From NCBI GenBank assembly GCA_000993615.1, contig LBWM01000005.1:62001-126000 (forward strand): a DNA stretch of 64,000 nucleotides. Reading direction: 5' to 3'. Positions 1 through 5,142 of the stretch are shown here, in pieces. Both the position numbers and the translations under genes were made by a program. This stretch comes from Candidatus Peregrinibacteria bacterium GW2011_GWF2_39_17. Lineage in GTDB: Bacteria; Patescibacteriota; Gracilibacteria; UBA1369; UBA12473. How positions within the stretch are numbered: the stretch's first letter is position 1; every line of letters starts with the position of its first letter. Under the pieces are notes generated by a model that was not told the DNA's origin, did no database searches, and saw nothing but the letters and a program-made list of their open reading frames with translations.

Positions 1-3000
1 CGCTCCTCACTATTGGCGCATCTGTTGGTGCGATTTACGCCATTTATAGAGCTTGGGATTGCGGAAAGAAATGGCTGGAAATACCAGTACAAATTGGCGT
101 TATTGGAACTGGTAGCGCTCTTTTAGCTGATATCTTAACCAAAGTCATTACCGGTAAAACCGCCATGGAATTAATCCAAAATGCCACCACCGAAGAAGGC
201 AAACTTAACGGCTTTCTAGCTGATATTCCAGCCAGAGTCGGAGAGGCAGACAACGTAGCGCTTGACCCGCTACGCTCCATGGTTGCCCTAGGCACCAAAA
301 TACCATTTAGCATTTATCTAGATGCCTATGAATATGCGGTTAGAAAAGGCAACGACAAAATAGACATGCCCCGTTTACGTCGCAGTTTACGCCAAAAATT
401 AGGACGAAGATTTACAAAAAAACACGAAGAATTTCTGAATAACAAATATGGCAAAGGAATGTTCGAAAACATGGAAAACTTAGTAGGGGAAGCCAATATT
501 AGTACTTTCAGGAAAAAATACGTTACCGACCCCCAAGAAAAAACCGGCCTGGAATACAACTTAACTCAAGTGTTTTATAGTGAAGCTTTAGCCGACCCTT
601 CAATTCATATTGCGGGAACAAGTTCCACAATCAAGGAGGATTTACCACTAGCTAGCCCTAAAAAAAATCAAAGCCAAGAAAAATCTAAAAAAGAGGAAGC
701 AGAAAACGAAAAAGAATATAAAACCGATGAAGAAAATAACGACGACGACGAACAATCAAAACCCTCCTCAAAAAACCTTAACAAATCAGCCCCAGAAAAT
801 AATCTAAATCAAAAAATAATTAAAGCCATACCCGGCTTTAACCCGCTTAGCCCGGAATTCCAAAAAAACAACACCGTCAAATTAAAAGGACTAAATTTTA
901 GTTATACCAAGCAAGAAATACCAGAAGCCGGCACTTTAATTTCCATCACCTATCCCCATGCTGACCCCAATGATCCCCCATTCAGTTTTTGGCTTAATAA
1001 CGAAATAATTGACGCAAAAACCCAAGAAAAATCCTTAATAGAACTTATTGATTATCTGCAAGCCATCATGACGACTTCAGCCGCAGTTTTGGGGCTAGTA
1101 GGAAATATCACCCCATCCTGGAACCAAGACGCCAAACAATGGGAAGTTAATTCCTATCCAGTACAATATAGCTCCGCCGCTTTTGGAACAGGAGGACCCA
1201 TTAACCGAAATTTAGACCTGAAAATTGAGGTTTACGGAGACAATTCCGTGGCTTTATGTTACGGAAACAAACAATACAAAAGCCTAGATGCTCTTCAAAC
1301 TGACCTTACCTCAAAAATTTTATTGGAAAATTTTGGACGCCTACCTTTATTTAAAGGAATGCCAATTGAAATAGAAAATATTTCTGATCCAAACCACCTT
1401 AAAATCGAAGTTTCCAAGACCAAATTTGAACTCACCCCCAATGCCACAACAAAGGACTACGATATAACGATCATCGGGAAAATAAGCCCAGAATTTCTAC
1501 AAGCCAAACGTGAAGCCGTAACTCAAACCCCGGAATTTATAAAATTATTCGAAGATTTTGAAAAAGCCGGCGAAAAACTCAGCATGACCAGAGGCTTTTT
1601 AGATCTCCTACATGTAGAAAACCCGGATAGTACCAACCATTATTGGCAAAATCTTTGCGCTTATAAAAAATATCAAATCCTCCAAGCCTACGAAGATGAA
1701 TTAAAAAATCAAACCAGCGGTTCAGCAACCATATCTCCATCTGATTTTGAAAAAATTTACCAAAAAACAGTGGGCACAGCCATCACTGATTTGCAAAAAT
1801 TACCCGGCAATCTCCTCAAAAGCCAAGCTGACGAAACCGCATATTCCAAATATGTCCAAGAATTTGCCGCTTATGGCTACAAAAAAGCCTACAAGGATCG
1901 CTACACTAAATTTCAAACAAGCATCCTTGATCCGGATAAATTTGATTATGTGGGACCAATCGAAAAATCCAATCGTGCCTTCCAAGCCATACGTTTTCAC
2001 TTGGAAAAATTGTGGTATGACCGCACCAAAGAATTCAAAAGCAATGATAACTTAAACACCACCCAAGAAGCCTACTGTCAAGCTTTACAAGATTTCACCA
2101 CTGCCAAGCTTCAAGAATTACAAACAAATCACCCCGATGGAAGTTGGTTCTCAAATTGGGTTAATAAAACTGATTTCCGCATCACCGAAGACGAATTTGA
2201 AGAGCACTTTAAGGAATTCAAATCCTTCCCAAGTTATGAAAAATGGCAAGCCGAAACCGGCCTGGATGAAAACCTAGAAACCACCTTGCAAGCCCGTCTT
2301 CCGCTCATAGCCGGAAGCTTCAACGAAGATGTTCAAAAAAGCGACCTCAATCGAGCAACTAATGTTCTAACCCTAACCTTTAAAGACGGGACTACAGCCA
2401 CCATCAACCTAGCAGCTCCTCCCGGAACTCCGGCCCTAAACGAATTAACTTTAACCGAAACGCGCATCGACAATTTGGTGGGCGACGTAGAACACAACCA
2501 AAAGTTTAACCAGTTGTTTGATAGTTTGGAAAGTGCCTTGGCTGGAATCAAATTTGATTTCAGAGACAGTTGGATCCCGTTTATGGGAGGGAATCCAGCC
2601 GAAGCCTGGAAAGCCTTAGTAGAGTACAAAAAAGGCGAAGCCCTTGAAGCGTTTAAACAAGATTTGAGAAAAACAATGAACGATCCCGCCTTCAAAGGAA
2701 ACACCATCGCCACGGCAACTGAAGTAAATCGCCTATTTGCCCATTTTGAAGAGCTATATCTGGTGAAAGATCTGCCGGATTTCCAACACGATATCGAAAC
2801 AGAAATAACCACCATGATTTCCAGCAAACAAGAAATACCTAAACCAAAATTCACCGATTGGAGTCGCCGTTTAAGTAATTTTGACTACGAACAAGAATAC
2901 CGCGACATGATGGAGGGAACCCGTGCCTACCTGGCTCTATTCGACTACGATTCACCTCAAACGCTCAATAAAGCCATGAACTTAATCTTTAAATACACGG

Positions 3001-3518
3001 GATTTTTACGAAACGCCCCGGCTACTACCCCATCAGCTCGAATTTACGAAGAACTTTATTACATGACGGTCCAAAGAGAAGTAAACACACTAGTTCGCAA
3101 AGCCGCTGCCGATGGCGAAGTAAAAGCAGATGAAATGCCGGACAAATTAGGACTTGATAATTTTGAAGACTGGAAAGCCAAAGTGGGTCCTATTCCTCCA
3201 ACCGTCACGTTGCCAGCAACGCCCATCAGCTGGGAACAATTGAATCAAGCCATTCAAAAAAGACCGGAGGTGATGAAAGCGGCTGCCGATAAATTCGGCG
3301 ATGTGTACGATCTTAAATGGGTCAATAAAGCCGCAGTGGATAGTGCTCATCATGATGCCACAAAATGGAAAACTTATGATAATTTGGCATCAGCCATGCA
3401 AAACCGCTATTTAGCCAATGTCCTTTTCGATGTACAGACAGAAGCCGCAGCAGTAGCCGATTACGAAAAATATCTCACAACTTTGTATCCAGTGGCTCAC
3501 GCCGCTTGCTATATCTAA
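1..3518 (+). CDS. Very large protein of unknown function, 5' end outside the window
   Basis: The reading frame is open from base 3 to a TAA at 3516-3518 (about 1171 residues seen), with no stop before the internal ATG at 165, so the gene starts upstream of the window. The first ~50 visible residues hold two hydrophobic stretches that may be membrane segments. Residues ~217-262 are a low-complexity linker rich in Lys, Glu, Asp and Ser. The rest is a mixed helical, Tyr/Phe/Lys/Glu-rich sequence with no motif I recognise and no Cys-rich or PKD-like repeats. Length and linker suggest a membrane-anchored multidomain protein, but I assign no function. The next element downstream is a separate promoter at 3556. 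Confidence 0.8.
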   Translation, partial: LLTIGASVGAIYAIYRAWDCGKKWLEIPVQIGVIGTGSALLADILTKVITGKTAMELIQNATTEEGKLNGFLADIPARVGEADNVALDPLRSMVALGTKIPFSIYLDAYEYAVRKGNDKIDMPRLRRSLRQKLGRRFTKKHEEFLNNKYGKGMFENMENLVGEANISTFRKKYVTDPQEKTGLEYNLTQVFYSEALADPSIHIAGTSSTIKEDLPLASPKKNQSQEKSKKEEAENEKEYKTDEENNDDDEQSKPSSKNLNKSAPENNLNQKIIKAIPGFNPLSPEFQKNNTVKLKGLNFSYTKQEIPEAGTLISITYPHADPNDPPFSFWLNNEIIDAKTQEKSLIELIDYLQAIMTTSAAVLGLVGNITPSWNQDAKQWEVNSYPVQYSSAAFGTGGPINRNLDLKIEVYGDNSVALCYGNKQYKSLDALQTDLTSKILLENFGRLPLFKGMPIEIENISDPNHLKIEVSKTKFELTPNATTKDYDITIIGKISPEFLQAKREAVTQTPEFIKLFEDFEKAGEKLSMTRGFLDLLHVENPDSTNHYWQNLCAYKKYQILQAYEDELKNQTSGSATISPSDFEKIYQKTVGTAITDLQKLPGNLLKSQADETAYSKYVQEFAAYGYKKAYKDRYTKFQTSILDPDKFDYVGPIEKSNRAFQAIRFHLEKLWYDRTKEFKSNDNLNTTQEAYCQALQDFTTAKLQELQTNHPDGSWFSNWVNKTDFRITEDEFEEHFKEFKSFPSYEKWQAETGLDENLETTLQARLPLIAGSFNEDVQKSDLNRATNVLTLTFKDGTTATINLAAPPGTPALNELTLTETRIDNLVGDVEHNQKFNQLFDSLESALAGIKFDFRDSWIPFMGGNPAEAWKALVEYKKGEALEAFKQDLRKTMNDPAFKGNTIATATEVNRLFAHFEELYLVKDLPDFQHDIETEITTMISSKQEIPKPKFTDWSRRLSNFDYEQEYRDMMEGTRAYLALFDYDSPQTLNKAMNLIFKYTGFLRNAPATTPSARIYEELYYMTVQREVNTLVRKAAADGEVKADEMPDKLGLDNFEDWKAKVGPIPPTVTLPATPISWEQLNQAIQKRPEVMKAAADKFGDVYDLKWVNKAAVDSAHHDATKWKTYDNLASAMQNRYLANVLFDVQTEAAAVADYEKYLTTLYPVAHAACYI

Positions 3519-3555: not shown

Positions 3556-3584
3556 TTGACTTTTTTGCTGATTTGTAGTATGAT
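3556..3584 (+). promoter_or_regulatory. Sigma70-type promoter before the GC-rich gene
   Basis: A TTGACT box (3556-3561) and a TATGAT box (3579-3584) are separated by exactly 17 bases. This is the best promoter match I found in the window. A transcript starting near 3591 would carry a leader of about 260 bases, containing three hairpins, before the ATG at 3850. Confidence 0.7.
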
Positions 3585-3609
3585 TACACTCCTCTCCCAA
3601 CCTGGAAAG

Positions 3610-3781
3610 GCAATGTTCTTTGACAATTAGGACATTGCAGAGAGACATGAGGGCATTAGAAACTTATGGGTTTATTAGTGCCTTCATGGACTCTCTGTGA
3701 TGCGAAAAAAAATTAATAACGAGTCAGGAAACCAGGGCGGCGAAGGATCCATTCTTTCACTCCCGTGGTGTCCTGACTCGT
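3610..3781 (+). ncRNA. Three consecutive hairpins: structured leader or small RNA
   Basis: Three inverted repeats follow each other. The first pairs 3610-3618 with 3630-3638 (9 bp with one G-T pair). The second pairs 3638-3663 with 3670-3697 imperfectly over about 26 positions. The third pairs 3719-3729 with 3771-3781 as a perfect 11-bp stem that may extend inward imperfectly. They lie between a promoter and a gene, so they could be a cis-regulatory leader or an independent RNA. I do not recognise tmRNA, SRP RNA, RNase P or 6S signatures. No T-run follows the third hairpin, which argues for a leader. Confidence 0.5.
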
Positions 3782-3849
3782 AACTCAAAAACGTTCGGAA
3801 AAACCGGCCGCGGCACCGAGTGGTGTCCGTAGGCCGGGGAGGTAGTTCG

Positions 3850-4647
3850 ATGTCAATTCGTGCAAAAATCGCGTTGTGGATTCTCGGGATCGTGATGGTG
3901 GTGGTGCTGGTGGTCGTGGGACTCCGGTCCTGCGGAAGTGGAGGTGGCAGTGCGCCCCTCCCCCCTCCGGCGGCCGGCTCAGGTCCGGTCGCCGCCGCAC
4001 CGGCCCCCCCCGTCCCCGACCCCCCCAGCGCCCCGCTGGGGAGATGGAACTTCGGGACGTCCCCCAAAAAGGCGTCCCCGGTACCTCCTCCCACACCATC
4101 TGGGCATCCGCCTGGATGGGTACCACCAACGGTTCCCGGCGCCCCCCCAGTCGTCGGCCCCGTGCCCCCCGCTCCCCCCTCCGCCGCAGGCCCCACGCCT
4201 CCCGCGCCCCCCCCGCCAACGGCCACGCCGTCCACCGGACTCGCCAAGGGTCCCATCTCACGTTGGCTCGAGCGGCGCTATGCGGGGAAAATAGGCTGGG
4301 CAGAAACCAAACAAATCACTTGGATAGCATCCTGGGAGGATAAGTTTGGTTTCGCGGGGGCCTTCGCCCTCTGCCTGCTCTGGTGGTTGCTTATCCGGAT
4401 AATGCCGGAAAGTTTCTTCCTAGAACAGGTTCTCGGCTACGGCGGCCCCCTGGCCGCCCTTGTCATCATCAGGCCCAGCCACTGGGGGGGCTGGGCACTT
4501 GGAATTGCATGGACGGTGGGGTACGGCGTAAGCCAGTATCTCACCAAAAAATGGACGACGGGTTGGAAAAAGCAGGTGGCCCTCCGGGGCTGCCAGCTGA
4601 TCCTCTTCGCTGTCCAAGTGGGGCTGACCTACTGGCTGCTCTTCTGA
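3850..4647 (+). CDS. Proline-rich membrane protein in a GC-rich islet
   Basis: Unrecognised 265-residue protein. Residues ~7-25 form a hydrophobic anchor. A Gly/Pro/Ala-rich disordered stretch follows to about residue 135, then a C-terminal half with three or four hydrophobic, Trp-rich helices ending at the last residue. I chose the ATG at 3850 because GGGGAGGT lies at 3836-3843, six bases before it; a GTG at 3820 would add ten residues. The gene is oddly GC-rich with C/G-ending codons, whereas its neighbours are AT-rich, and its strong Shine-Dalgarno is unusual in this window. Both facts suggest acquisition from another genome. It has its own promoter and terminator. Other open frames here are by-products of high GC. 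Confidence 0.75.
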   Translation: MSIRAKIALWILGIVMVVVLVVVGLRSCGSGGGSAPLPPPAAGSGPVAAAPAPPVPDPPSAPLGRWNFGTSPKKASPVPPPTPSGHPPGWVPPTVPGAPPVVGPVPPAPPSAAGPTPPAPPPPTATPSTGLAKGPISRWLERRYAGKIGWAETKQITWIASWEDKFGFAGAFALCLLWWLLIRIMPESFFLEQVLGYGGPLAALVIIRPSHWGGWALGIAWTVGYGVSQYLTKKWTTGWKKQVALRGCQLILFAVQVGLTYWLLF

Positions 4648-4835
4648 GCCGGTAGCATCAGCCCACTCCCCCGCGTCGCCTCACACGCACGTCATCGCCA
4701 CCCGGAACTCCGGCGGCGCGGGACACTCTACTTTTTCGCATCACACGACCCGAGGGCGCTCAGTCGTCCGCTTCGGCTCGATGTTCACATCAGAACCATC
4801 CGATGCCCATGCGGCCTGAACGCTCCTCGTCCAAG

Positions 4836-4870
4836 AAAGCCCCGTCTGATTCATTTCATTCGGGGCTTTT
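4836..4870 (+). terminator. Rho-independent terminator, possibly bidirectional
   Basis: AAAGCCCCG (4836-4844) pairs with CGGGGCTTT (4861-4869), followed by more T. It ends the GC-rich unit. On the other strand the stem is followed by a weaker T-rich tract and may also serve the convergent gene at 4885-5142. The 4648-4835 stretch before it is GC-rich and holds no gene I can support. Confidence 0.8.
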
Positions 4871-4884
4871 TCACAAAAAAAAAT

Positions 4885-5142
4885 TTATCGTGCCAACGCC
4901 ATACTCACAAAATCATACACGTCCTGACTGATCGCATACACTTGCCCTTTTTCAACCTGCAAAATTCCACCAAAAAGCGTTTCATCATCTTCCTCCTCAA
5001 AAACCCAAAACGGATCATCAGACACTTCATGAAGCGGACGGAATCGATAAATACGATCTTCAAAACGTTGCCGGAGCACTTCCACACGAGCCATAAATTC
5101 TTGCAAAGGCCCCAAATCCATCAAGCAATATCCCGAATCCAT
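4885..5142 (-). CDS. Small hypothetical protein
   Basis: An 85-residue acidic protein, unrecognised. It has no signal peptide or membrane segment. The middle carries a run of Asp/Glu (DPFWVFEEEDDETLFGG) and the C-terminus looks like a short strand-helix unit. It converges with the GC-rich gene across the shared terminator and lies divergently from rlmN. Codon use matches the AT-rich background. Confidence 0.5.
   Translation of the reverse strand: MDSGYCLMDLGPLQEFMARVEVLRQRFEDRIYRFRPLHEVSDDPFWVFEEEDDETLFGGILQVEKGQVYAISQDVYDFVSMALAR

Follow-up and report, generated by a model that had tools for sequence, protein, structure and literature searches.

How does a small bacterial genome come to hold one short stretch of extreme GC content with a single gene in it, and was that gene imported? 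The genome in question is that of a Peregrinibacterium (1.31 Mb; 1,308,673 bp in 15 contigs, 97.9% complete), and we analyzed 64,000 nucleotides of one contig, which we call the window. The original prediction was of a GC-rich islet, with a promoter, a terminator and a strong Shine-Dalgarno (SD) sequence of its own, that encodes a proline-rich membrane protein and was brought in as an expressed module.

The islet itself was confirmed. In sliding 300-bp windows, GC rises from about 0.40 to 0.66-0.76 over roughly 3750-4350 and is about 0.45 again by 4800-5100. In 400-bp windows, the peak is 0.75, as compared to a mean of 0.394 (sd 0.046) for the 64-kb window, and 3572-5051 is the sole region above 0.52. 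We also searched the whole 1,308,673-bp assembly for 28-mers with at least 25 G or C. All 61 forward matches lie within 3950-4230 (start positions 3950-4203), so no second stretch of this kind exists in the genome. (A period-3 GC pattern, which served as its own control, was dominated by low-complexity codon runs and was dropped; the GC-run pattern was used instead.) The islet contains one gene with G/C-ending codons, as predicted: GC at its three codon positions is 0.645, 0.608, and 0.721, and its GC3 is the maximum (0.72) among 35 long ORFs of the window (mean 0.35, sd 0.08, islet gene included).

The full unit is larger than the islet. It begins with an AT-rich promoter and leader, about 230 bp ahead of the GC edge (Table 1). 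The predicted promoter is there, and at the far end a hairpin with a T run folds as expected of a terminator. The SD is indeed unlike those of the neighbors: if the first ATG is taken as the start, then a 5-base SD match precedes only 1 of the 35 window ORFs, in a tally in which the islet's own SD was seen. The sequence of the second leader hairpin is not common to G001, the sister-genus genome discussed below.

Table 1. Features of the islet unit and the gene before it (window coordinates)
Feature	Position	Strand	Evidence or remark
Gene of 1117 amino acids, no known family, AT-rich	165..3518	+	Homologous in G001 (context only)
Promoter: -35 TTGACT, 17-nt spacer, -10 TATGAT	3556..3584	+	Sequence; aligns with G001 promoter
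boxA-like element TGTTCTTTGACA	3614..3625	+	First conserved block of leader alignment
Conserved leader hairpin CATTGCAGAGAG...CTCTCTGTGATG	3633..3702	+	Fold z -6.65 (3600-3725); covariation
Leader-trailer (closing) helix, 5' strand TGTGATGCGAAAAA	3696..3709	+	Perfect complement of 4732-4745
Second strong leader hairpin, at AT/GC boundary	3719..3781	+	z -7.5, 0/200 shuffles
Third leader hairpin, directly ahead of SD	3804..3837	+	Fold of 3700-3845
Shine-Dalgarno GGGGAGG	3836..3842	+	Sequence; 3' end of the genome's 16S has CCTCC
GC-rich gene, 265 amino acids, ATG 3850, stop 4645-4647	3850..4647	+	
Trailer strand TTTTTCGCATCACA	4732..4745	+	Pairs with 3696-3709
Terminator-like hairpin and T run	4836..4872	+	Sequence; fold z -4.35 (4780-4890)

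The claim that the module was imported did not hold up. SI075_bin129 (G001), which is the only other member of the family among the genomes examined, has the same order of elements: a homolog of the upstream gene, a promoter, a boxA, the same hairpin, and then a GC-rich gene (67% GC, GC3 0.88) whose protein has a clearly lipoprotein-type start. The upstream 1117-residue protein matches the longer ORF that precedes the G001 islet (blastp, E = 6e-39). So a gene of similarly high GC sits at the same locus in the sister genus, yet the two islet proteins do not align. Their leaders do, and in a DNA search of 59 relatives the G001 match fell in the leader, outside the gene. An assembly chimera is unlikely because the same arrangement recurs in independent assemblies.

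Similar units are present in other genomes. Across 89 genomes of the order, a promoter-derived pattern matched at 16 places, as compared to 6 for the control, and led to the unit in G035. A promoter-boxA pattern identified 21 places, as compared to 17 in the control; this count is not enriched, and the value of the pattern lies in the places themselves. This second pattern first gave most of the other members, and the case for them rests on inspection and on later tests. The pattern places include islet-type units in G000, G001, G002, G035, G088, and probably G006, and also two tmRNA genes and one tRNA. A covariance model (R2) had matches in 20 of the 89 genomes at E = 0.1. On inspection, we considered the units to be clear in 13 genomes (G000, G001, G002, G014, G017, G025, G028, G035, G049, G081, G084, G085, and G088) and doubtful in six more (G006, G031, G032, G042, G052, and G063). 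Family f2 has up to four units per genome. The final model (R3), with strict filters, matched 9 of 379 genomes sampled from the phylum at E = 0.001, and the units in four genomes outside the order look right (G408, G432, G190, and two units in G344). Most of the leaders that the patterns and models found, within the order and outside it, precede orphan ORFs with raised GC.

Some matches were set aside. Eight R2 matches were omitted from our set of 24 units as false or unclear: L105, which is inside a coding gene; L108, for which we found no ORF; L112, which is inside a 16S gene; and L110, L111, L113, L114, and L120. Among the R3 matches, G398 does not look right and was rejected, and G000b has no ORF. 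Mirror-image matches on the minus strand were dropped as well.

The contents of the units vary; the frame stays the same. Judged by eye, they encode multi-transmembrane (multi-TM) lipoproteins (the kind in the window), acidic repeats, Glu-Pro repeats, coiled-coil-like proteins, or zinc-ribbon-like proteins. The ORF has higher GC than its flanks in 23 of the 24 hand-picked units, with GC3 of up to 0.92, and in 7 of 9 units that were found later; the exceptions are G032 in the set of 24 and G052 and G190 in the later set. We also note a few individual cases. In G049 (HKST-UBA20), two boxA-hairpin units (L115 and L125) lie in tandem, 0.9 kb apart; their multi-TM lipoproteins are 76% identical, and their leaders and trailers are nearly identical. 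L118 and L121 encode acidic-repeat proteins in two congeneric genomes. They differ by a replacement of roughly the first 30 residues, flanked on both sides by nearly identical DNA, and by an 18-base gap farther along. L129, from Gw_Eff_bin_292 (titled Candidatus Woesebacteria), is laid out in the same way as the other units: its ORF is zinc-ribbon-like and has an SD, and its closing helix is weak. This would place a unit in another lineage of Patescibacteria, provided that the bin is correctly assigned.

The leader hairpin is supported by covariation. In a MAFFT alignment of five leaders from five genomes, made with no structural prior, 13 of the 24 base pairs are changed on both sides, and none of 500 shuffles reached any of five measures; sliding the partner strand destroyed the signal. 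In an alignment of 18 sequences, 16 of the 24 pairs are changed on both sides, but that alignment was fitted to the model, so we prefer the smaller one.

The trailer of the unit pairs with its leader. We first saw this closing helix by eye in the window and in G001, and then tested it. In the window it has 14 base pairs (3696-3709 with 4732-4745), it is part of the minimum-energy fold of the whole transcript, and none of 44 cross-pairings with other units scored as high. Across 23 units (the 24 minus G049a, whose locus ended early), none of 20,000 random re-pairings scored as well as the units' actual leader-trailer pairs, and after dropping three more near-copies (20 units), the count was still 0 of 20,000. 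The nine later units were found by hairpin models or the hairpin pattern only, with no use of the trailer, and for these 5 of 20,000 permutations reached the observed sum. The helix is mostly 9-21 nt long. In 17 of 23 units, its leader strand starts 7-14 nt before the end of the hairpin, so it uses the hairpin's CTCTC strand and the bases after it. The closing helix is weak or unclear in G028, G063, G035b, and G002c/G049d, and in G014, G344a, G190, and W129 from the later set.

This arrangement resembles the precursor of 16S rRNA. The genome's own pre-16S leader has a similar boxA (TGACCTTTGATA), as do those of six other genomes. In the 16S genes of G000, G085, G002, G031, G035, and G006, the boxA runs straight into a leader-trailer helix of 26-33 nt (30 nt in the window's own genome), which carries an AGAGA strand 14 nt on from the boxA (AGGGA in G006). 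(For the 16S gene of G001, the leader was covered and the trailer end was not.) The window leader and its own 16S leader share 20 of 32 ungapped positions across boxA-N14-AGAGA, which none of 300 shuffles reached; for G001 it is 21 of 32, reached by 1 of 300 shuffles. The R2 model also matches the G001 16S leader (E = 0.019, the best of 13 loci after L107, which is a possible unit). In other units the spacing ranges from about 8 to 18, so the identical N14 spacing characterizes the window's family and a few others rather than the units in general. Overall, the likeness extends to the promoter type, the boxA directly before the leader strand, and a trailer that is complementary to the leader (as pre-16S units are described in PMC10250234), and also to the N14 spacing to AGAGA (in the window and its own 16S) and a folded GC-rich body. 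In contrast to a pre-16S unit, the body of the islet is an ORF with its own SD; the 3' strand of a local hairpin in its leader runs on into the closing helix; and the closing helices of islet-type units are short (9-21 nt instead of 26-33). Nor is there an rRNA body: Rfam gave no match in 3556-4872 at its gathering score, and its only matches in the window are two tRNAs.

In two other families of the order, we noticed that tmRNA genes (L074 and L080) directly follow a promoter with a boxA-like element. From these sequences, boxA seems to mark several stable RNAs in the order.

Several results indicate that the units are translated. We chose the ORF starts of the units by eye, so we repeated the SD test with one mechanical rule for all genes. 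A 5-base SD match is present in 15 of 24 units (14 of 24 with the by-eye starts), as compared to 3 of 42 window ORFs and 1 of 27 AT-rich genes that flank units in this and related genomes (together, 4 of 69 controls; Fisher p = 4e-8). Ordinary genes of these cells rarely use SD initiation. For pairs of related units (the window gene itself has no such pair), dN/dS was 0.18 for G002a/G049a, 0.24 for G002a/G049b, 0.25 for the tandem pair G049a/b, and 0.11 for G002c/G049d, so in some members the protein is under purifying selection. An acidic pair was looser (0.64), and a neighboring gene was at 0.03. These ratios imply that the unit genes are translated and that they evolve faster than the neighbor.

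The ORFs may also be shaped by the fold of the RNA. We permuted synonymous codons, which keeps the protein and the codon usage. The window ORF was more structured than its permutations at z = -7.0, and G035 at z = -11.5; the other seven of nine units ranged from -1.1 to -2.7. Among 24 ordinary window ORFs (the first 600 nt of each), the mean was -0.44 (sd 1.08, lowest -2.17). Excess structure is thus clear in two of nine units, with a trend in the rest that largely overlaps the range of the controls.

The original prediction of a proline-rich, membrane-type protein agrees with hydropathy. The window protein has a 27-residue N-terminal hydrophobic helix that ends in LRSC, a proline-rich linker (about residues 34-130), and a hydrophobic C-terminal part. 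As a lipobox, LRSC departs from the consensus. An AlphaFold model has a disordered proline-rich stretch and hydrophobic C-terminal helices, at low confidence (pLDDT 60, pTM 0.27) and too poor for a fold search. A membrane-anchored surface protein would fit this layout. Searches with the 265 residues gave no useful match in any collection: at the sensitivity used, there was no homolog in phages, plasmids, Pfam, PHROGs, NCBIfam, genome contigs, or named genomes, and no convincing homolog in the 59 related genomes. (We rejected the single match among these relatives, in G031 at E = 3e-5, to a proline-rich protein with repeated extracellular-type domains.)

We compared the window protein to a multi-TM lipoprotein family from Peregrinibacteria family f2 (in G002, G049, G088, G085, and G017, plus G035 and G006, whose member lacks the Cys). 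The window protein has the layout of this family by hydropathy: an N-terminal signal or anchor with a Cys, a linker, and a multi-TM C-terminus, behind a boxA-hairpin leader. In sequence, hmmsearch gave E = 0.044 in a search of a 9-sequence set, and hhalign gave E = 0.077 with just 19 columns aligned, at the lipobox. The window leader scores 79 bits with the leader model, of whose training set it is a part. The family itself had no PDB profile match better than E = 0.2 and nothing credible in Pfam.

We propose that the islet is probably a translated mRNA that is made, folded, and closed like a pre-rRNA, so that import need not be invoked. The architecture of the unit is well supported; Nus binding, antitermination, processing, stability, abundance, and the role of the protein are what we infer. 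A strong promoter would start an RNA with a boxA and, at once, the conserved hairpin. NusB and S10 would bind the boxA and convert RNA polymerase to the antitermination form that transcribes rRNA. The GC-rich RNA could then be made without coupled translation and without termination by Rho, and would fold while it emerges. The trailer, once it emerges, would pair with the leader (in many units, its partner would be the very CTCTC strand of the hairpin), and this leader-trailer helix would enclose the highly folded, GC-rich ORF. The closed mRNA, possibly trimmed by RNase III, would then be stable and would be translated afterwards from its SD to give a membrane-anchored, surface-type protein. 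The high GC would reflect selection on the RNA (for structure and for few AU-rich sites of nuclease cleavage) rather than foreign origin.

More generally, but with somewhat less than even confidence, we suggest that Patescibacteria keep a separate "ribosomal-style" class of messages: GC-rich RNAs for orphan and often surface-type proteins, transcribed with the rRNA antitermination machinery, uncoupled from translation, folding and closing 5' to 3' as a pre-rRNA does, and initiated by SD. It would be a long shot to suppose that these are armored, SD-led messages with GC-rich codons whose intended place of translation is another cell, that of a GC-rich host. If our proposal is correct, then transcription and end-pairing of the rRNA type extend beyond stable RNAs; a large and poorly known group of bacteria uses them for fast-evolving orphan proteins; isolated GC-rich genes in AT-rich genomes can be explained without gene import; and the leader signature can be used to locate such genes. 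It would also become testable when an mRNA is uncoupled from translation and how RNA shapes the GC content of single genes.

How do other explanations compare? The folded RNA of about 1.2 kb might itself be the product, as a scaffold, sponge, or particle, with the ORF as a secondary passenger or one of two functions. The body folds to -635.5 kcal/mol, it is far more structured than its synonymous permutations, the frame is like that of rRNA, and the same genome has a related boxA hairpin without a long ORF (at C5:42705, see below). However, selection on the protein is purifying in related units (dN/dS 0.11-0.25), SD sites are enriched, and protein types vary widely while the leader stays, and we consider this explanation to be unlikely. 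A less probable alternative is that the boxA mainly holds translation or transcription down and links the gene to ribosome synthesis. As described in PMC5725501, boxA regulates the mRNAs of E. coli suhB and of a ParE-like toxin in Citrobacter, and in suhB it represses translation, with a proposed loop between boxA and the polymerase. The fact that in E. coli an mRNA can be repressed by its boxA, and not boosted, counts against the rRNA-like message that we prefer. In the islet, boxA is about 225 nt ahead of the start codon, while the published search for boxA used at most 50 bp. On the other side, the islet unit has a strong promoter and SD, and the portion of the paper available to us does not describe leaders with a leader-trailer helix or a GC-rich body.

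If a GC-rich gene had recently been acquired from another organism, this would account for the sharp edges in composition, the alien codon usage and SD, and a protein with no convincing homolog in the 59 genomes searched. We view this as very improbable: the sister genus has the same leader with a GC-rich gene at this locus, units with GC-rich genes turn up in other families, both inside the order and outside it, and at the sensitivity used we found no donor homolog of matching GC in phages, plasmids, Pfam, PHROGs, NCBIfam, or genome contigs. Least plausible of all is that the leader and trailer strands are the terminal inverted repeats of a small insertion element. Inverted repeats of mostly 9-21 nt do flank about 1 kb of odd composition, and there are several units per genome in family f2. 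But the repeats differ among units while being complementary within each, as in an RNA helix, instead of being shared among copies; the conserved unit includes the promoter and boxA, which the repeats do not enclose; the leader pattern was absent from the viral contigs that we searched; and none of the ORFs beside the islet was recognized as a transposase (four of them were searched against Pfam).

We also compared the rRNA-framed message that we propose to other known systems. CRISPR arrays led by boxA are similar in having a boxA on a long non-rRNA transcript, but they are not known to have an ORF or a leader-trailer frame. GOLLD, ROOL, and OLE are large folded RNAs from a single locus, but they are non-coding. 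In Rfam, the islet had no match at gathering score, and nine related loci had none at E = 0.1. Protochlamydia amoebophila has an AT-rich genome. It is a host-associated bacterium, and its lgr genes are GC-rich and without whole-length homologs; in contrast to the islet, they encode leucine-rich repeat proteins in 5.6-kb genes from one duplicated family, with no rRNA-like frame described (in the portion of PMC2216083 available to us). The suhB-type mRNAs share with the islet a boxA in the 5' UTR of a protein-coding gene, but the genes of the islet units are unrelated to these, the islet has a long structured leader, a leader-trailer helix, and a GC-rich body, and the islet-type frame recurs ahead of unrelated orphan genes (as compared to the available portion of PMC5725501). 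We found no description of rRNA-framed protein-gene units in the open-license PMC literature, so to the extent of our searches, a recurrent rRNA-like frame for protein genes has not been described before.

Three other loci should be mentioned. The second R3 match in the window's own genome (C5:42705-42790, minus strand; L157 and L158) has a promoter, a boxA, and the hairpin, followed by an AT-rich folded stretch, and lies between genes that by eye are UvrD-like helicase and infB-like. It has no ORF of over 55 amino acids, no raised GC, and no Rfam match, and is possibly an undescribed stable RNA. The leader alone does not imply a GC-rich message, since this hairpin unit has no GC-rich ORF. In G042, the 16S gene matches in two pieces (L142 and L145) that are about 600 bp apart on one contig (C18), perhaps because of an insertion in the gene. 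Finally, in G031 (C16:44000-54000, L008), GC changes from 0.37 to 0.6 and stays high for most of 7 kb, with a Cys-rich, lipoprotein-like repeat ORF of 1497 amino acids, so the order also has GC-rich regions that are larger than the units described here.
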